DNA of 64,000 nucleotides. Origin: Planctomycetales bacterium (GTDB lineage: Bacteria > Planctomycetota > Phycisphaerae > SM23-33). How positions within the stretch are numbered: the first letter of the stretch is position 1; each line of letters opens with the position of its first letter. Of this stretch, positions 7,501 to 22,413 are shown in pieces. The position numbers and the translations under genes were made by a program. The DNA lies in assembly GCA_030612725.1 (NCBI GenBank), contig JAUWNJ010000017.1:1-64000 (forward strand). Reading direction: 5' to 3'. The notes under the pieces are model-generated. The model saw only the letters and a program-made list of their open reading frames with translations, had not been told where the DNA came from and did not search any database.

Positions 7501-9009
7501 CCACAGGAAAGAAAACAGCTGATCGCTTACCTGATCAACGCAAAGAAACTCGACGATGCGGAAAAGAAAATTGACCAGAGATTACAGAAAGACCGAACCG
7601 ACGTGGGAATGTTGACGCTGAAGGCGTTGCTTTATTTCAATCGCAAGGATTATACCAAGGCAAAGGAAATCCTGGGCAATATACTGAAGATTCGCTCCGA
7701 TTACGTTCCCGCCCTGGTACGTCGGGCCGACGTACATCTCGTCGAAGGAAACAGGGACCTGGCAGTGGCGGATTTGGAATCGGCCAAACGGTTGGGCGCC
7801 GCACCGATAGACGTGATGCGCCTGGCCGGTCTGTACGAAAAAATGAACCGTGTCGATGACGCCATTAGTGTCCTGCAGGGCTTGTTGTCTGATAACCCGC
7901 AGAACGACGTTCTCCTGAAATCTCTGGTCAGATTGTACGGACGCAGTCAGCGGTGGTCATCGCTGGAAAGAATACTGGATGTAGGAAAAAAGGCTTATCC
8001 GAATGACATGTTCTATCCGCGTAACGAAGCCGAAATGTGGCTCCGAAGAAAGGTCCCTTCCAAGGCCGTTACGATTCTCACCGAAGCGGCGAAACGAGCG
8101 CCAAATGATACCGGCATCGCCTTCTTCAGAATGCGTGCTCTGGTAGCAACAGGTATGTTCGATGATGCAATAGCCGCCGGTAAAAAACTTCGCAGTAATA
8201 AAGATATTGCCCCGTCCGTAATGGCTGTTACGGCGTTGGCGCTGGCGAAGTCCAATCGTCATTCTGCTGCGGATGCGGAGTTTGCATCAGCAGTAAAATC
8301 AAGCAAATCCGACGGGCAACTCCTGTTCGTGCTTCAACGGGTCCGAGAAGCCTATCCGCCCGCCCATGCCGTCGAAAAACTTAAACTCCTGCTCAAGATT
8401 AAACCAGACAACCCGCAGATATATTATGCGATAGGCGACGCACTGTTCAGTCAGGAAAAACTCAAGCTCGCCGCCGAGTATTTCAATAAGGCCTTGGCCG
8501 GCGCTAAAACAGACACCCAAAAGACGGTTCTCATGGGGAGATTGGGAATCGTTTATTTCCGTACAGGTAAGTTCGCTGATAGTCTGCGGATGTACAAAGA
8601 GACCCTGAAAATAAATCCCAAAAACGCTCAGGTGCTGAATAATCTTGCCTGGTTACTGGCCCATGATATGAATAAACCCGACCAGGCTTTACCATATGCC
8701 CAAAAAGCGTGTAAACTGGTGCCCGATAGTAGCGAGTGCCTGGATACCTACGGATATGTTCTGATGCGGAGTGGTAAGTATAATGAAGCCCTGGACGCGT
8801 TGAGCCGATCTGTCGATATACGGGCGACGCCGGCTAACAGGTTGCATTTGGGCGAAGTTTACGAGAAAATGAATCGCAAAAGCGATGCGTTTCGTCAATA
8901 TCAGTCTGGGTGGGAACTCGTCAAGGACGATCCCAAAAATAAATATTACCGGGAATTGCGCGAAGCCATTAAGAGGCTTGGTGGTACGCCCGGCGGGAGT
9001 ACCGAATAA
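4561..9009 (+). CDS. Very large TPR-repeat protein, N-terminal TM anchor
   Basis: 1482 aa, N-terminal hydrophobic segment, many TPR-like helical repeats. Confidence 0.85.
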   Translation: MAKKKRLNKKMIIILASIGAVILIGGIGFWIWRQPEDPKVYASRAEAFLKEGKYKSAAHNYRIAADVSDNDNPDKPEYYLSWAKVLLEWRQKDKTLGESARNDNLSNALGALQRAMLFKPDFIEAQRLLTKWEYGMYWTRDYKKCIAASNRLLELVPDDHEVLYQRAMAYMQLAKDDPESLKSATKDFQRLVEIAGDQEIYWLRLIQARLVSQEPDRYEQAEKTFEEAIEANKDSASLRINYAQFLLQRKRETKAVKLLHDIADPKFGATGYLALASYHRQKRDLDQAVPNYKKAIGVEPTDYRGYSELARIYTMRKEQAEAEVILKKGLDEIRKNKKADLKGAKLQNYRVGIVLLDHQLCDILLDGLETSSNKEKTIQAVRDMLKEIQDTAADSPLASRIEPYVNKIEGRLALVNDDLIKAEKLLRKAFDSFRTLDGRAYIDITTANLLINLYKQLGETGESQQIVARVTQNRKKSPSSLMAMVRLHIDARQYEQAQRSLQLMLEETRTEALVSIQVALDAVMGRGKRIPSELKNLDPLAVQLFHRRAQQLWLQGEQVSAIQILSDILSRQPKNLNVMVQIITWHKMRKEIAQANEALAHARQVYKDNPRVLKQLSLLMETDPDKRLEQFLAMASAETDPVRKALRKADVYRSFGKEKKFLEYLAVAEDKDPKNPTVIRQRFAYALIKKDWEKARKYADTAAKNNIDAVGGATFRAQLAFGRKQWDEAIGFLQEALRVRPRFSRAHSLMGDCYMAKGEIEQARKQYESAYSQNPSDISALKGMIYVSTATGNAADYARWVKQAYKFAPQDTRIREAYLRLQSDPEEVIKYREQIAKTQPKNMVNLSRLATLYEQTGRIPQSEEVFRTMVNISGGNPVTVGTLAEFLRRRKRDVEARSMLASYAAKATDKVAAYLVWGGYLEKGGGSEQAEAVYKKAVAADPKDSRGYLGTARFNARHRRWLQAAENQQKFIQIEGEETSPQERKQLIAYLINAKKLDDAEKKIDQRLQKDRTDVGMLTLKALLYFNRKDYTKAKEILGNILKIRSDYVPALVRRADVHLVEGNRDLAVADLESAKRLGAAPIDVMRLAGLYEKMNRVDDAISVLQGLLSDNPQNDVLLKSLVRLYGRSQRWSSLERILDVGKKAYPNDMFYPRNEAEMWLRRKVPSKAVTILTEAAKRAPNDTGIAFFRMRALVATGMFDDAIAAGKKLRSNKDIAPSVMAVTALALAKSNRHSAADAEFASAVKSSKSDGQLLFVLQRVREAYPPAHAVEKLKLLLKIKPDNPQIYYAIGDALFSQEKLKLAAEYFNKALAGAKTDTQKTVLMGRLGIVYFRTGKFADSLRMYKETLKINPKNAQVLNNLAWLLAHDMNKPDQALPYAQKACKLVPDSSECLDTYGYVLMRSGKYNEALDALSRSVDIRATPANRLHLGEVYEKMNRKSDAFRQYQSGWELVKDDPKNKYYRELREAIKRLGGTPGGSTE

Positions 9010-14998: not shown

Positions 14999-16738
14999 TT
15001 ATTCCACGTATGCTGCGAATAATCTGGTTTCTTCAGCACCCCAGGTTTTTTCTATGGTTACTCTGACGGCTTCGATTTTCCTGCCGATTGGGATTCTGAT
15101 TAGGCGCTGGTAGTTTCCGCGAACCTCGCCGGCGGGCGACCATTCGCCGCCGTTCAGAACCTCCACGCGGGCGTCCGCCAGAAGCGATTCAGGCGGTGCG
15201 GTCAGTTCGCCGAAATCGCCGTAATGGCACATCTGAATGAGCGTCTCCAGGGCGCTGTCGGCGATGAGTGTCAGGCGTTCGACTTTGCCTCCGGCCTGAA
15301 AGTGCATCTCAAGCGTATCGCCGACCCGACAGCGCCAGGCGTGCTCATCGTCGCCGACGGGACGATTGATCCCGTCGCGGAGCGGTTCCGGGTCGCCGGA
15401 AGAGGCCTTCAGTTCCGCCTGCATGGTCAGTTCGCCGAATCGCTGGGGCACGCCCGGAAGGTAGGCGTCGTCGGACAGCAGCATCTGCTGGAGTTCGTCG
15501 ATGTGGGCGGACACGTCGGCAGGGGTGATGCCCCGCCGGACCGCGATAGCCGCCGCCGTCCCGACCGCCTGGCCCATCACCGTCGTCGTTCCCATCACCC
15601 GCGTCGAAGACATCGCTATATGCGTGCAACTGACGCACCTGCCGGCAAAGGAAAGGTTCTCGATATCGCGCGCCACCAGCACGCCGTAGGGAATACCGTA
15701 AGGCGACGGGGCGGGATTAAATATAGTTGGCGGCAGCCCCAGTTTCGCACAGCCAAAGCCCTCGGGGGTGTGGTCGTCCATAGACCACCCGCCGTAGGCG
15801 ACGACGTCGTCGAAACGTCCTTCCGACTCGATGTCGCTCTGCGTCAGCATGTGTTTGCCGACGTACCGGCGGGACTCCCGCTTGCCCGGTAGGAACTGCA
15901 CCCACTCCAGCGCCCAGTTGTCTGCCCCGTGGTCGCCGCGATTCTTGATGTGGTCCCAGACGCCATAGACCACCGACAGCAGATCGTCGCGGATTTTTTC
16001 GGTGTCGTAGATGCTGTGGTCGTGCTCCAGCCCGCCCAGTTCGATCCACCAGTAACCAAGCGACCACCACATGTGCTCGCCGGGCAGGTCTTCGCATCGG
16101 TCGTAGCGGTTTGCCCATGCGGGCGGCTCAAACGGCTGGGGCGTGTCGTATTTGCGTGCGCCGAATGCCAGCGTCATTCCCATCGTGCACGAATCGGCCT
16201 CGGCCGGGGCGAACGATTCGCCGTACTCGTCGCGCCCCTCCCGTCCCATGCAAAAGTCAGCCCCGGTCAGCGGCGCCAGGATCGCGTCGCCGCTGGCGTC
16301 GATGAATATCTTCGCGCCGACGGTATGATAAGTCTGCGTGGTCGTCTGCCAGCCGGTGACAGAAACAATTCTTTGCCCGTCCATTTCCGCATCGCAGCAC
16401 GAGCAGTTCAGCATCAGCGTGAGTCTCTCCTGCCTGCGGGCAGCGTCGTAGAGTATCGTGTCCCACACGCTGAAACTTCGCTGGCGGTTGCGGCGGAGAT
16501 TGGTCAGCCGGAGTTCTTCGAGGATTCCGGTCTCGCGGACGTTTGGGATTCGATTGTGCCGGTCCGCCCCGCCGATGTGCATGCGACACTCGCTGGAGGA
16601 GTTTCCGCCCAGAACGGGCCTGTCGTGCATCAGTATGACGCTCGCCCCGTGCCGAGCCGCCGACAACGCCGCCGCCAGCCCCGCCATTCCCCCTCCGATT
16701 ACGCATACGTCCGTTTCGTGTTCAATTCGCCTGGTCAT
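14999..16738 (-). CDS. FAD-dependent oxidoreductase (FAD_oxidored type)
   Basis: DVCVIGGGMAGLAAALSAARHGASVILMHDRPVLGGNSS. Confidence 0.85.
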   Translation of the reverse strand: MTRRIEHETDVCVIGGGMAGLAAALSAARHGASVILMHDRPVLGGNSSSECRMHIGGADRHNRIPNVRETGILEELRLTNLRRNRQRSFSVWDTILYDAARRQERLTLMLNCSCCDAEMDGQRIVSVTGWQTTTQTYHTVGAKIFIDASGDAILAPLTGADFCMGREGRDEYGESFAPAEADSCTMGMTLAFGARKYDTPQPFEPPAWANRYDRCEDLPGEHMWWSLGYWWIELGGLEHDHSIYDTEKIRDDLLSVVYGVWDHIKNRGDHGADNWALEWVQFLPGKRESRRYVGKHMLTQSDIESEGRFDDVVAYGGWSMDDHTPEGFGCAKLGLPPTIFNPAPSPYGIPYGVLVARDIENLSFAGRCVSCTHIAMSSTRVMGTTTVMGQAVGTAAAIAVRRGITPADVSAHIDELQQMLLSDDAYLPGVPQRFGELTMQAELKASSGDPEPLRDGINRPVGDDEHAWRCRVGDTLEMHFQAGGKVERLTLIADSALETLIQMCHYGDFGELTAPPESLLADARVEVLNGGEWSPAGEVRGNYQRLIRIPIGRKIEAVRVTIEKTWGAEETRLFAAYVE

Positions 16739-16821: not shown

Positions 16822-17619
16822 TTACGCCTGTCGTATTCGTTCGATTCTCATAACCGCGGGCCAGAGACCGTTGATCTCTTCGCGGTCGTATATCTCGGCT
16901 TGGTATTTATCGTTCAGAGGTTGGAGGCGAATCTTACCGCCCTTTGCGCTGTAAAACCGCTTGAACGTGGTGGAATTGTCGCTGGTGAAGCGGACGAAGC
17001 AGTCGTCCCCGTTCCTGACCTGGGTATTGGGCGAAAAGATTACCAGGTTTCCCTCTGTGTAGTTAGGCCCCATCGAGTCGCCGACGATGTGAGCGGCGAA
17101 TGCCTGCGCGTCATGCACGTCGGGGCAGCGGATGTATTCGTCGGCCACTGAGGGCGGGTAATCCAGGTCGGTGAAATGGTGCGGATAACCGGCAGAGACC
17201 TTGTTTATTATGGGTACGGTCCTTCCGGCAGACAGTACGTCCGAGACATTGGATTTTGTGGATTTCAATCGGCGTGCGATGGCGTTTATTTCCGTTCCTT
17301 TCGGCGTGGATTTTTTCCGTCCCGCGAGCAGTTGCTTCAGTATGCTTCGGAGTTTTTCGACCTCGGCGGTGAGGGATTCGTGCTCCGCGCGGATGTCCAT
17401 CGGTGTTCTCACCATGTGGGCCAGTTTACGCAGTTGACCCGCAGGGAACTCCAGTTCGGCTTCCAGTCGCTCCAGCACACCGTCGGAAGGGGGGTTCTTT
17501 ATCCGGTCGGTTTCAATGTTCGAAAGGTACTGCTTAGAGATACCTGCCTGCGAGGCCGTCTGGTCCTGCGTGAGTTGTTTTTCCTCACGTCGGTTACGTA
17601 TTAATTCGCCGAGGCTCAT
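16822..17619 (-). CDS. XRE-family repressor with S24/LexA-like peptidase domain
   Basis: N-terminal HTH TQDQTASQAGISKQYLSNIE; VSAGYP cleavage-like site, IVGDSM Ser, TTFKRFY Lys. Confidence 0.85.
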   Translation of the reverse strand: MSLGELIRNRREEKQLTQDQTASQAGISKQYLSNIETDRIKNPPSDGVLERLEAELEFPAGQLRKLAHMVRTPMDIRAEHESLTAEVEKLRSILKQLLAGRKKSTPKGTEINAIARRLKSTKSNVSDVLSAGRTVPIINKVSAGYPHHFTDLDYPPSVADEYIRCPDVHDAQAFAAHIVGDSMGPNYTEGNLVIFSPNTQVRNGDDCFVRFTSDNSTTFKRFYSAKGGKIRLQPLNDKYQAEIYDREEINGLWPAVMRIERIRQA

Positions 17620-17727
17620 AATTATTTTCTCCCTCGTTTCAAATCCCTAACCCCAAGTCTCCCAATAGTATAGACCCGTCAACTCATACTTTCTAACTAT
17701 TTGTAAATAATTTCTGTAAGATTACCC

Positions 17728-17755
17728 TTGACATCTGTATGATAACTGTCATACT
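17728..17755 (+). promoter_or_regulatory. Promoter with embedded palindromic operator candidate
   Basis: TTGACA -35, 16-nt spacer, CATACT -10-like; GTATGA-taactg-TCATAC perfect inverted repeat 17737-17754. Confidence 0.6.
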
Positions 17756-17837
17756 TATGTAATATATGGTATTTGCAATACAGGCAAGGGGCATCGAAAG
17801 CACCGGATTACCGAAGAATCCGCAATTCACAATCCCT

Positions 17838-17863
17838 GCCTGCCTCCGGCAGGTAGGCAGGCG
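17838..17863. repeat. Hairpin repeat cctgcctgcctccggcaggtaggcagg
   Basis: Self-complementary sequence in leader of HTH gene, flanked by cgcaattc/caatcc units. Confidence 0.7.
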
Positions 17864-17892
17864 CAATCCGCAATTCTTTTGAGGAGCGAATC

Positions 17893-18360
17893 ATGCCGTT
17901 GACGTTGAAGGAGAATTTTCTTCGATCCGTCGGAACTCGGCGCGATAAATCCGGTTTTCTCAGCGACCAGAGCGTCATCGAAGCAAGGACGAACCTGCTC
18001 GATCCCGAAGACAGGAACCTTCTCCGTGCAGTGCTTATCTACAACCAGCCGACGAAAGTGGTCGCCCAGATTAACCGGACCAGCCCCTCTATCATTCGGC
18101 GTCGCATACGCCGGTTAATCGTCCGGATCAGTTCGTCGCAATTCGTATCAGTCGCCCGAAGCCTCCACCTGCTCAACGACGAACAGTCCACCGTTGTCAA
18201 ATACCACATTCTCCAGGGAAAGTCGCTTCACGCCACAGTCAATGCGACTTCGCTTCAGTATCATGCGATTCGCAGAGTGCTCGCCGAGGTTGACGGGATC
18301 GTCGCCGGACTGGTACAGGCCGAAGAAAAATACCCAATTCATCAGGAGCGATGTACATGA
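17893..18360 (+). CDS. Small HTH (sigma-region-4-like) DNA-binding protein, candidate TerS-like/activator
   Basis: LLRAVLIYNQPTKVVAQINRTSPSIIRRRIRRLIVRI; first gene of cassette. Confidence 0.5.
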   Translation: MPLTLKENFLRSVGTRRDKSGFLSDQSVIEARTNLLDPEDRNLLRAVLIYNQPTKVVAQINRTSPSIIRRRIRRLIVRISSSQFVSVARSLHLLNDEQSTVVKYHILQGKSLHATVNATSLQYHAIRRVLAEVDGIVAGLVQAEEKYPIHQERCT

Positions 18361-19616
18361 CTACGCCGAAATGGGATATACCAATCAGCGTCAAAATCAC
18401 CTCTTCGCCCGTAGATGATCCCGATGCCTCCATCATAGCCGGGATGTTCGGCCTGTCCGGGCGACGTACCGAGCCGCTTTACGAGGATTTTCATCTGGGC
18501 ATATCACCGGGCGAGATTATTGTCGTTACAGGACCCAGCGGCGGAGGGAAGACCTCGTTGCTCCGGGCAGTTGCGGAGTCCGTACCCGATGCGATAACGC
18601 TGGACATGGACGCGCTGTCCACCGAAGTCAGGCCCGCAATTGCGTGTTTGGGGGATGGTTCACTGAAAGGAAGATTGGCGGTTTTGTCTCGTTGCGGCCT
18701 GGCCGACGCCAAGGCGCTGATCACGCCGGTAAAGTTTCTCTCTGGTGGACAGTTATACCGTTTGGCGCTGGCGACGGCGGTGTGGCGGGCGTCCGTATCG
18801 GGCAGGCCCAGGCTGATGCTTATTGATGAGTTCGCTTCGACCCTTGATTCAGCCACTGCCGGTGTTCTGGCATCGGGTCTGCGAAAACTCGCCCGGCGGC
18901 ACGGTCTGGCGATGATTATCTCGACGCCGCGAGATGAACTCCTGAAGATTATCAAACCCGACCGCATGATCGTCAAACCGCTGAACTCCAAAGCGTATCT
19001 GTTACGCTTCGCTGAAGCCTGTCCCTTGGGAGCGAGCACGCCGAAAACGCTCAAGCCTGTTCGCTCCGAGGACGGAAACGCCTTTGGGAAAAACTGGAAG
19101 ATCGAACGGGGAACCATCAGGGACTATCGCGCGTTGAGTCGGTTTCATTACCTGACCGGACCCCCTGCCGCTCACAAGCGTGTCTGGACGATACGCGCTC
19201 CTGTTGATGCGATGCATCCCGGTACGCCCGAAGTGGCGGCGGTTTTGGTGGTTTCGCCGCCGGTGCTGTGCTGCCGGGGACGCAACGTCGCCACGGGAAA
19301 GCGTTATGTAAGCCCCGACCGTCGGGCATCGACGGGTTTGCTGAATGCGGAGATTGAGTGTATCTCTCGCGTGGTCGTTCATCCGATATATCGTTCCTGT
19401 GGCCTGGCCGTCCGGCTTGTTCGGCACGCGCTGCGAACAACGCAGATGCCGCTTATCGAAGCATTAGCAACGATGGGAGCAATCCACCCGTTCTTTGAAC
19501 GGGGAGGAATGAGCGCTTTCGGACGATTCACAGGCAGGAAACTAAACTACAACTACTACCTCGCAGCGGCGAATGCCGTCCTTCCTCGAAATTCATTCAA
19601 CCCCGACACCATCTAA
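18357..19616 (+). CDS. ABC-type ATPase fused to GNAT acetyltransferase domain
   Basis: Walker A GPSGGGKTS, signature FLSGGQLYRLALA, Walker B RLMLIDEF; GNAT VVVHPIYRSCGLAVRLVRHAL; ATGA overlap with upstream gene. Confidence 0.8.
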   Translation: MTTPKWDIPISVKITSSPVDDPDASIIAGMFGLSGRRTEPLYEDFHLGISPGEIIVVTGPSGGGKTSLLRAVAESVPDAITLDMDALSTEVRPAIACLGDGSLKGRLAVLSRCGLADAKALITPVKFLSGGQLYRLALATAVWRASVSGRPRLMLIDEFASTLDSATAGVLASGLRKLARRHGLAMIISTPRDELLKIIKPDRMIVKPLNSKAYLLRFAEACPLGASTPKTLKPVRSEDGNAFGKNWKIERGTIRDYRALSRFHYLTGPPAAHKRVWTIRAPVDAMHPGTPEVAAVLVVSPPVLCCRGRNVATGKRYVSPDRRASTGLLNAEIECISRVVVHPIYRSCGLAVRLVRHALRTTQMPLIEALATMGAIHPFFERGGMSAFGRFTGRKLNYNYYLAAANAVLPRNSFNPDTI

Positions 19617-19628
19617 AAAGGAGAACAC

Positions 19629-21071
19629 GTGTCAGACCTGTCAAATGATTCCAAACCGCAATCTGCGCTTCCGCCCCGTCCAACCAGTCGGGACGAACTC
19701 GCCAAGTGGGTTAAGGACGAACTGGACATGCACATTCCCGATGAGGCAATCTGTCAGTCGCATAAGTCGCCGATGGATTACCTGGCGGCGAGTTTCCTGG
19801 ACGACGGCGACGACCTGTTGGTATGGGCGAATCGGGGTGGCGGAAAGACAATGCTCGCGGCAATAGCGGCCTTGCTGGACGCACTGTACAAGGCTCCGAT
19901 AGATATTCGCATCATCGGCGGGTCGTTCGACCAGTCAGACCGATTGGCTGATTATCTGCGAAAATTCCTCTCGATGGAAAATCTCTCCGGCGCTGTCGCC
20001 GGCAGAATGACTCGTCATCGGATACGCCTGACCAACGACGCGGATATACGCATGTTAAGCCAGTCCCAAAAGGCGGTCCGAGGACAACACGCCCAGAAAA
20101 TTCGATGCGACGAAGTGGACTTATTCGATCCGGAGGTTTGGGGCGCGCTGCAGTTCACTACCCGTTCCAGCGACCGGGCGAGAGGCGGAATCGAGATATT
20201 CTCGACGCTTCACCGTCCCGGCGGACTTATGGAGCATCTGGTCGAGCAGGCCCAGCAGGAAGGAAACTTCCGCATGTTCAAGTGGTGCCTGTGGGAGGTA
20301 ATCGAGAAATGCGACAAGTCGAAGCGGCAGTGCGAAGACTGCCCCCTGGACGATGATTGTCAGGGAAAGGCCAGGCGGGCGGACGGATTCTTCAGAATCG
20401 ACGATGCAATCGCCATTAAGGCCCGTTCAAGTCGGAGTGCATGGGAGGCCGAAATGCTCTGCATCGGCGCTAAGCGGGACTGGCTGGTCTTCAGCGAGTT
20501 CGACCGGGCTTTGCACGTCGCCGATGTGGAGTATTGCCCCGATTGGCCGACGTATCGGGCGATCGATTTCGGATATACCAGCCCGCTGGTGTGCTTGTGG
20601 GTTCAGGTTACGCCCGCCGGCGACGTGCACGTCATTGACGAGTACGCTCACACCCGCAGGCCTGTCGCGCAGCACGCCGTCGAGATACTCGCCCATAATC
20701 TCGCTCCGGTGGTAACGACTTACGTTGACCCAGCCGGTCATGCTCGCGAAGCTACCAGCGGGGCTGCGTGTACCGAGTTGCTGGCATCGGCGGGGATAAG
20801 TTGCTGCTGGCGGGCATCGTCGATTAATGAGGGTCTGGAATTAATCCGGGCAGCGCTTGCGCCGGCTTTGGGACCGGCGAGGCTGAAGATTAGCAGCAAG
20901 TGCCGGGGGTTGATTAAGGCGTTCCGGGAATATCATTACCCGCTTCCCGGATCATCAGGCCAGCCCGACCGCCCCATAAAAGACGGCCCGGACCATTTCA
21001 TCGACGCGCTGCGATATTTTTTCATCAACAGAATGAGACCGAAAATTGGAGTTCACAGAAAAAGGTATTAA
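19629..21071 (+). CDS. Phage-type terminase large subunit-like protein
   Basis: Walker A NRGGGKTM, Walker B KIRCDEVDLFD, nuclease-like AIDFGYTSPLVCLWV, TYVDPAG, DHFIDALRYFF; Cys cluster CX6CX2CX5C. Confidence 0.8.
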   Translation: MSDLSNDSKPQSALPPRPTSRDELAKWVKDELDMHIPDEAICQSHKSPMDYLAASFLDDGDDLLVWANRGGGKTMLAAIAALLDALYKAPIDIRIIGGSFDQSDRLADYLRKFLSMENLSGAVAGRMTRHRIRLTNDADIRMLSQSQKAVRGQHAQKIRCDEVDLFDPEVWGALQFTTRSSDRARGGIEIFSTLHRPGGLMEHLVEQAQQEGNFRMFKWCLWEVIEKCDKSKRQCEDCPLDDDCQGKARRADGFFRIDDAIAIKARSSRSAWEAEMLCIGAKRDWLVFSEFDRALHVADVEYCPDWPTYRAIDFGYTSPLVCLWVQVTPAGDVHVIDEYAHTRRPVAQHAVEILAHNLAPVVTTYVDPAGHAREATSGAACTELLASAGISCCWRASSINEGLELIRAALAPALGPARLKISSKCRGLIKAFREYHYPLPGSSGQPDRPIKDGPDHFIDALRYFFINRMRPKIGVHRKRY

Positions 21072-21222: not shown

Positions 21223-22413
21223 ATGGGACATGATGAGCATATAATTGCGCCGTCTCATCCATGGATCAATTTCCAGGTCGATTTCAGATCTCTGGGGCCT
21301 CTGATCTGGATGGCGTTAGGTGAGTGTGTGTCAAAATGTGAGCACATTGCCAATACGCCCCTCCGCCCAAGCCTCAGGGATGAATTGCATCTTATCTATC
21401 TGGCCAAGGGTGTGCAGGCTACAACGGCGATTGAGGGAAACACGCTCACCGAAGCCGAAGTGATAGAACGGATACAGCACAAGTCCACACTTCCCCCATC
21501 CAAAGAATATCTTGGTCAGGAAGTGGACAATATAATTAGTGCGTGCAACCAGATAGGCCAGTCTGCGGTTGAAGGGCGCGACAAGAAAATCACGGTTGCT
21601 CTTTTGTGTGATTACAATGCCGATGTCCTGCGTAATCTTAAATTGGATGAAGGTGTCGTTCCCGGGCAACTCCGCAAGCATGATGTTGGTGTTGGAATGT
21701 ACCGTGGGCCTGACTACCAATACGTGCCGGAACTGATGGAGCGTCTTTGCCAATGGCTGAACAGGCTTAAATTCAAGAGAGAAGCAGTAGGTATCTTGCA
21801 GGCCGTCCTTGCCCATTTGTACGTAGCTTGGATACATCCCTTCGGCGACGGGAATGGACGAACGGCCCGTTTGGTGGAATTCGATATTCTTATGCGTTCG
21901 GGAATTCCCTCACCGGCAGCACATTTGTTGAGCAACCACTACAACGCCACTCGCAGTGAATACTACCGTCAACTGGATGCCGCCAGTTGTCAGAAAACTC
22001 CGATGGAGTTCGTCGAATATGCGATACAGGGATTTCTGGATGGGCTTCGGGAGCAACTTGAACTTGTTACCTCGCAAACCCGCGATATTGTATGGAGGAA
22101 CTTCGTACACGAGAGTTTCAGAGAGATGCGATCGGAGGTAGCGCGCCGCCAGCGGCATGTGGTGCTCGACCTGTCCATTCAGGCTGAACCCATAGCCAAG
22201 GCTGAAATTCCGTCCCTCACACCTCGCCTGCGGAAAGCATACGCCGGAAAGACCGACAAGACCCTTAGTAGAGATTTATCCAAACTTGTTGAAATGAAAC
22301 TTCTGATTAGTGGCGGAGGCAAATACGGCCCCAATCAGGGACTCATCGAGGCATTCCTGCCCCAGCGACGGAGCAAAGAGCGGGCGGAGATGGAATCCGA
22401 CGATGGGAAATAG
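21223..22413 (+). CDS. Fic family protein with N-terminal inhibitory motif (class II-like)
   Basis: HPFGDGNGRTAR catalytic loop; TTAIEG matches (S/T)xxxE(G/N). Confidence 0.9.
   Translation: MGHDEHIIAPSHPWINFQVDFRSLGPLIWMALGECVSKCEHIANTPLRPSLRDELHLIYLAKGVQATTAIEGNTLTEAEVIERIQHKSTLPPSKEYLGQEVDNIISACNQIGQSAVEGRDKKITVALLCDYNADVLRNLKLDEGVVPGQLRKHDVGVGMYRGPDYQYVPELMERLCQWLNRLKFKREAVGILQAVLAHLYVAWIHPFGDGNGRTARLVEFDILMRSGIPSPAAHLLSNHYNATRSEYYRQLDAASCQKTPMEFVEYAIQGFLDGLREQLELVTSQTRDIVWRNFVHESFREMRSEVARRQRHVVLDLSIQAEPIAKAEIPSLTPRLRKAYAGKTDKTLSRDLSKLVEMKLLISGGGKYGPNQGLIEAFLPQRRSKERAEMESDDGK

Follow-up and report, generated by a model that had tools for sequence, protein, structure and literature searches.

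A cassette of four genes was analyzed at positions 16822-21071 of a 64,000-nucleotide stretch (contig JAUWNJ010000017.1, positions 1 to 64,000; hereafter the window) from a Planctomycetales bacterium, whose genome is referred to as G000. It encodes an S24 repressor, a small helix-turn-helix (HTH) protein, a fusion of an ABC ATPase with a GNAT acetyltransferase (ABC::GNAT), and the large subunit of a terminase (TerL). They resemble one half of an ancient domesticated virus, the half for control and packaging, with the capsid genes located elsewhere in the genome. With a probability of about two in three, the window is where a split viriform that is inherited vertically and resembles a gene transfer agent (GTA) keeps its regulatory and packaging genes. 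A domesticated GTA-like module for DNA packaging was one of several functions proposed in a first-pass annotation of the window, and it is the best reading here. The term GTA-like is used rather than GTA because only those GTA traits that genomics can reach were found. The planctomycete class of the host may thus be one that makes gene transfer particles, possibly switched on by DNA damage. The survey covered this class, including Phycisphaerae/Sedimentisphaerales, and most of the genomes compared were metagenome-assembled.

The cassette and its gene layout

The features of the cassette are as follows.

16822-17619, minus strand: XRE-S24 (CI/LexA-like) repressor (Pfam Peptidase_S24, E 7e-19, plus XRE HTH; phrog_4)
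17728-17755, plus strand: predicted promoter of the HTH-ABC::GNAT-TerL operon, TTGACA-16-CATACT with an extended -10 (consensus scan)
17731-17760, no strand assigned: probable S24 operator, an imperfect dyad with 12-bp arms and a perfect core at 17737-17754
17893-18360, plus strand: small HTH protein (weak sigma70-ECF match; kept upstream of the ABC gene in the class)
18351-19616, likely start 18357, plus strand: ABC ATPase::GNAT fusion (ABC_tran, E 4e-9; weak Pfam GNAT match; phrog_293/phrog_886)
19629-21071, plus strand: TerL (PF17289, E 4e-8; phrog_2, E 1e-17)
20310-20360, plus strand: TerL cysteine motif, C228-x6-C235-x2-C238-x5-C244, a MutY/EndoIII-like [4Fe-4S] candidate

All four genes stand at the coordinates first assigned to them, and family searches backed each call. 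The gap between ABC::GNAT and TerL is 12 nt. Because the ATG at 18351 is absent from relatives, the true start is probably the ATG at 18357, which would give an ATGA overlap with the HTH gene. Profiles for portal, capsid, ParB, and the small terminase subunit (TerS) had no match in the whole 64-kb window, in agreement with the first-pass observation that no structural genes are adjacent. Its argument that a conventional prophage is unsupported at this site also held, since the window lacks structural genes and the structural locus described below lacks a TerL.

A structural locus elsewhere in the genome

Genome-wide, the idea that structural genes are lacking proved false: portal, scaffold, major capsid protein (MCP) of the SU10 type, and tail-like genes were found on contig C5 of the window genome. 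This second locus spans ~49.7-62.7 kb of C5 and has the order portal, scaffold, SU10-type MCP, a conserved 216-aa protein, and tail-like proteins. The portal is of the SPP1 type (phrog_104, E 4e-25), the scaffold matched phrog_15003 (E 1e-5), and the MCP matched PF17236 (E 5.5e-78), a capsid profile that in turn matches solved SU10-type capsids. A 772-aa protein of the locus has a weak LamG-like match, and the locus adjoins genes that read as cyclophilin-like and adenylosuccinate lyase-like. Other portal and capsid families (PF04860, PF05065, phrog_145, PF20036) had no match in the window genome or its genus, and neither had phrog_12.

The structural locus was examined in 16 genomes of the class. 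The PF05133 portal was present in 15 of them, one copy each, including C5 of the window genome, and at this point a reading of the cassette as a module without capsids was dropped. Portal and capsid occurred together in 14/16. The stretches fetched around the structural locus contained no TerL except in G090, where the cassette TerL lies ~6 kb away. Most simply, packaging genes under a repressor at one locus and structural genes at another can be read as a single, vertically inherited system.

Lone copies of the MCP gene were observed on phage contigs, one on L349/L354 (IMGVR_UViG_3300033145_000895; L354 5304-6464) that is 79% identical to that of the window genome and one on L350 (5970-7124) that is 61% identical. 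Their neighbors are genes for recombination, replication, or methyltransferases; a matching portal is absent, and L354 has its own distant terminase. Capture of host particles, or interference with them, is a possible explanation of these copies.

Evidence that couples the two loci

GTAs are viriforms with particle proteins derived from caudoviricetes, full endogenization that is often multilocus, and mostly vertical inheritance; they package mostly random host DNA, cannot fully package their own genome, and deliver DNA to other cells (PMC9662315). Judged by their genes, the TerL, portal, scaffold, and SU10-type MCP have caudoviricete ancestry. The window locus and the C5 locus both sit among ordinary chromosomal genes, as expected of endogenization over several loci. 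Host co-diversification is seen in TerL clades that track host family, with host relationships taken from taxonomy labels rather than a marker-gene tree, and in correlated distances. The correlations were r = 0.92 for TerL and portal, 0.78 for TerL and MCP, and 0.80 for MCP and portal (each p = 0.0001; 13 genomes), a result to be read with the knowledge that any two vertically inherited genes are expected to show it.

Synonymous divergence (dS) between congeners was alike at both loci (0.28-0.39), which argues for the cassette and C5 being parts of one genome and makes C5 no obvious contaminant. The genes of both loci are under purifying selection: dN/dS (the ratio of nonsynonymous to synonymous divergence) was 0.095-0.2 across TerL, ABC::GNAT, MCP, and portal, with 0.095 for the MCP, 0.10 for the portal, and 0.12-0.15 for TerL, the last close to the flanking genes. 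The S24 repressor gave 0.14-0.17. A separate observation was made in G063, where only ~0.2 kb separates the GNAT gene (L339 4107-4931, contig C29) from the structural cluster's end, with HTH-ABC and TerL located on different contigs; the position of this GNAT gene forms a physical link between cassette and structural locus.

Distribution and inheritance of the cassette

Conservation of the four-gene neighborhood beyond this genome, the check proposed at the outset, was found class-wide, with about one cassette per genome. Among 201 genomes of the phylum, strong TerL matches occurred in 12 of the 13 class genomes; outside the class only remote, prophage-type matches were seen. Both ABC::GNAT and TerL were mostly single-copy, with strong matches in 100 relatives, and TerL is patchy within the family of the window genome. 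Such class-wide recurrence of the gene set points to conservation far beyond chance. The fullest gene order, seen in other families, is a divergent S24 gene followed by HTH-ABC-GNAT-ParB-TerS-TerL. In the window genus, ParB and TerS are absent from the cassette locus and ABC and GNAT are fused. The cassette occupies one shared chromosomal site in two congeners.

In a TerL tree of 128 rows, one supported clade took in every portal-linked TerL of the lineage, from IMG/VR contigs as well as from prophages (G008, G028, G031, f2, and f7). The 96 TerLs without adjacent capsid genes fell outside it, in the clades that track host family. A search for genes conserved beside stand-alone TerL genes yielded mainly cassette genes and antisense open reading frames of TerL itself. 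When viral contigs were searched with single ABC::GNAT and TerL sequences, no relatives came up.

Repressor, predicted promoter, and probable operator

The window repressor has an Ala143-Gly144 site of the self-cleavage type, Ser182 (in GDSM), and Lys220 (in TTFKR). In a class-wide alignment, the Ala-Gly site, the GDSM serine, and the TTFKR lysine were also retained in most relatives. Because these residues are kept, control of the cassette by an S24-type switch is likely, as the first-pass annotation had proposed, and induction by damage is probable from the repressor motifs. The palindrome that it had placed in the intergenic promoter also proved real, by consensus scan and genus conservation. 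Its core, GTATGA-N6-TCATAC at 17737-17754, sits within TTGACA-16-CATACT, the predicted promoter of the HTH-ABC::GNAT-TerL operon, and the surrounding dyad (17731-17760) is the probable operator of the S24 repressor. Promoter and palindrome are kept within the genus with small changes only. A genome scan at <=1 mismatch found the palindrome as a single copy.

Terminase, ABC::GNAT, and HTH protein

The ATPase and RNase H-like nuclease motifs of the window TerL are intact, and catalytic motifs are retained in 91-94 of the 96 class TerLs without adjacent capsid genes. Its AF2 model (pLDDT 87) matched the large terminase of phage D6E over the full length in a PDB search (E 5e-19). A cysteine motif of the general form Cys-x4-10-Cys-x2-Cys-x5-Cys is present in 95/96 of the same class TerLs and in 16/16 of the portal-linked clade, compared with 0/16 other TerLs; it is also absent from SSU5-type TerLs. 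In the window TerL the motif cysteines (residues 228-244) are invariant in A1, and a weak mutY match falls at their position. The motif resembles the MutY/EndoIII-type [4Fe-4S] loop, and a metal site is possibly present as a candidate feature. A C-terminal tyrosine (window ~21066-21068) occurs in 84/96 class TerLs without adjacent capsid genes versus 0/16 of the portal-linked clade and is perhaps a docking tail.

In the ABC::GNAT protein, the ABC domain covers approximately residues 40-225 and the GNAT domain approximately residues 250-406. phrog_293 and phrog_886 back both halves. Its AF2 model has a pLDDT of 84.7, and the matches of the protein in the PDB were to generic ABC nucleotide-binding domains only. 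Homologues adjoin TerL in phages. The same ABC ATPase-acetyltransferase architecture is found in the COG2401/MK0520-type fusion, and one SSU5-type phage gene is so annotated; the window protein differs in that its gene shares an operon with a terminase gene throughout a bacterial class. We take COG2401 to be the number of this fusion, and the literature search found no paper naming it. ABC::GNAT genes without TerL were read in L300-L304 and L310 (f4, f15), L313 (G019), and L314 (G022), several of them beside an XRE-S24 regulator. Such retention suggests a role of its own for ABC::GNAT.

The HTH protein probably consists of two HTH units like region 4 of sigma-70; two such stretches are clear in a homologue and weak in the window protein. 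A role as an activator or as a DNA-binding factor in packaging is possible.

Comparison with known systems

A review of verified GTAs treats those of alphaproteobacteria, Brachyspira, Desulfovibrio, and a methanogen, and planctomycetes are not mentioned in it (PMC11841831). RcGTA/CcGTA and BaGTA share with the window system packaging and head genes derived from caudoviruses, several chromosomal loci, vertical inheritance, and repressor control (PMC9662315, PMC9632790, PMC11841831). The window system differs from them in combining an SU10-type capsid (PF17236) with an SPP1-type portal, in having ABC::GNAT within its packaging operon, in its layout in two separate gene blocks, and in its planctomycete hosts. 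Its regulatory logic resembles that of Caulobacter, where RogA, a LexA/CI-like repressor without key cleavage residues, controls the GTA activators and GTAs help repair (PMC9632790). The absence of TerS in the window genus fits the remark that GTA small terminases have no DNA-binding domain (PMC11841831). No report of the present system was found in the open-access literature searched.

SSU5-like phages share the order ParB-ParB-ABC-GNAT, which in phiK7B1, ANB28, and RHEph10 is followed by a DNA-binding protein, TerL, and portal. Phages of the SSU5/Nickie/RHEph10 type differ from the window system in their size (~100-120 kb), their portal (phrog_145 versus PF05133/phrog_104), and a distant TerL without the cysteine motif. 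In the family of the window genome, G028 carries a prophage-like block with a divergent S24 gene and ParB-ABC::GNAT-TerL-portal-scaffold-capsid. From the SSU5-like order and the G028 block, ABC-GNAT therefore belongs to a phage packaging neighborhood. The closest TerL relatives, with the cysteine motif present, are those of G028 and of IMG/VR contigs L114-L119, where the order is TerL-portal(phrog_145)-scaffold-MCP(PF20036). They differ in having adjacent structural genes, other portal and capsid families, a separate TerL clade, and no C-terminal tyrosine. The gene order of the cassette within intact prophages of relatives had been named in the first-pass annotation as a sign against its reading. 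This sign was seen in part: prophage-like blocks of the G028 type do occur in the same family, but their TerLs form the separate portal-linked clade.

A different arrangement was seen in family f6, where ParB-ABC::GNAT-TerS-TerL lies at one site and an HK97-type capsid and portal-protease lie elsewhere in all readable f6 genomes; the set was read in L094-L107 (G073, G067, G041, G096, G085, G050, G079, G059). This layout forms a second split, GTA-like architecture in the same class.

Alternative explanations

Several observations weigh against a GTA-like system. Tail-like genes are absent from some structural loci of f14/f17, and in the complete genome G066 the cassette is intact, but the portal is truncated and no capsid lies within 20 kb. 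The catalytic serine or lysine is absent from some repressors of the class, and the S24 operator was sought at the structural locus and not found there. ABC::GNAT is kept without TerL in G019, G022, and families f4, f15, and f18. In the congener G002, the ABC part carries a frameshift of 1 bp (L080 ~7860-8002), either an assembly error or decay. The distance correlations carry the general expectation given with them above.

The same genomic evidence also fits a PBSX-like particle, made by the two loci, whose function is to package host DNA or to kill relatives with no gene transfer; Bacillus PBSX packages 13.4-kb host DNA (PMC12946183), and the 772-aa protein with the LamG-like match could be an adhesin. 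A strongly conserved TerL motor is needless for a pure killer particle, however, and some structural loci have no tail-like genes; we regard this explanation as unlikely. That TerL and ABC::GNAT act on damaged chromosomes as a stand-alone module for host DNA processing or repair, with no capsid, we regard as quite improbable: no structural genes are linked to the cassette within the window, ABC::GNAT is kept without TerL beside S24 regulators in f4/f15, and G066 keeps its cassette despite a broken portal, but a co-diversifying portal and capsid locus without a terminase is present in 14/16 genomes. The G002 frameshift, the truncated G066 portal, and the patchy TerL in the family could mark one or two ancient prophages in decay that no longer serve any function. 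The dN/dS values, the catalytic motifs of the class TerLs, and class-wide persistence argue against decay and leave it little room. Hardly to be expected is a function in phage interference, in which the host TerL would dock on the capsids of invading phages and fill them with host DNA. Related TerL, portal, and capsid genes do occur in phages and prophages of the same host group, and some phage contigs carry the lone host capsid gene, but neither TerL nor the HTH protein matched the defense library, and the host already encodes its own portal and capsid.

Two further functions from the first-pass annotation found no support. In PADLOC, TerL and the HTH protein had no match, and S24 and ABC::GNAT had generic HTH/ABC similarity only, which led to the rejection of membership in a known anti-phage defense system and leaves damage-induced defense unsupported. 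A mobile island or phage satellite (of the type of phage-inducible chromosomal islands, PICI) is likewise unsupported, given the shared chromosomal site in the genus, the vertical-looking inheritance, and the absence of an integrase among the neighboring open reading frames read, with no search aimed at integrase families.

Proposed mechanism and significance

For the GTA-like system, we infer from sequence a course of SOS induction, roles for the HTH and ABC::GNAT proteins, docking of TerL on the portal, particle formation, and DNA transfer. Locus 1 in the window would supply the S24 repressor, the HTH protein, ABC::GNAT, and the TerL motor, and locus 2 on C5 the portal, scaffold, capsid, and tail-like proteins, without a terminase. 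DNA damage would activate RecA, upon which the S24 repressor would cleave itself and the HTH-ABC::GNAT-TerL operon would be derepressed. The HTH protein could then activate locus 2 or help to choose DNA, and ABC::GNAT could condition the DNA or the packaging complex. TerL would cut host DNA, dock on the locus-2 portal, and fill capsids by a headful mechanism. Loss of TerS and ParB in the window genus would favor packaging without sequence choice.

A broader proposal, which we consider evenly balanced, is that of an ancient GTA lineage across the planctomycete class, independent of known GTA families, with SU10-type capsids, a damage-induced two-locus genome, possibly an Fe-S terminase, and an ABC-acetyltransferase that stands in for TerS or modulates it. 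With a candidate found across a whole class, capsid-mediated gene exchange would reach into a large environmental lineage. The candidate would also give a testable function to the orphan ABC-acetyltransferase fusion, tied to DNA packaging through the SSU5-like phages. Two unlinked, co-diversifying loci would also offer a route to further split GTAs of a kind that escapes prophage callers.

Neighboring features

A SoFic-like Fic gene (window 21223-22413) lies directly downstream of TerL. It was considered as a cassette member and rejected, as it adjoins the cassette in G002 and G003 and is unclustered in the other families fetched. ARAGORN called a tRNA-Arg at window 16480-16577, inside a FAD-oxidoreductase open reading frame beside the cassette; the call is probably spurious.

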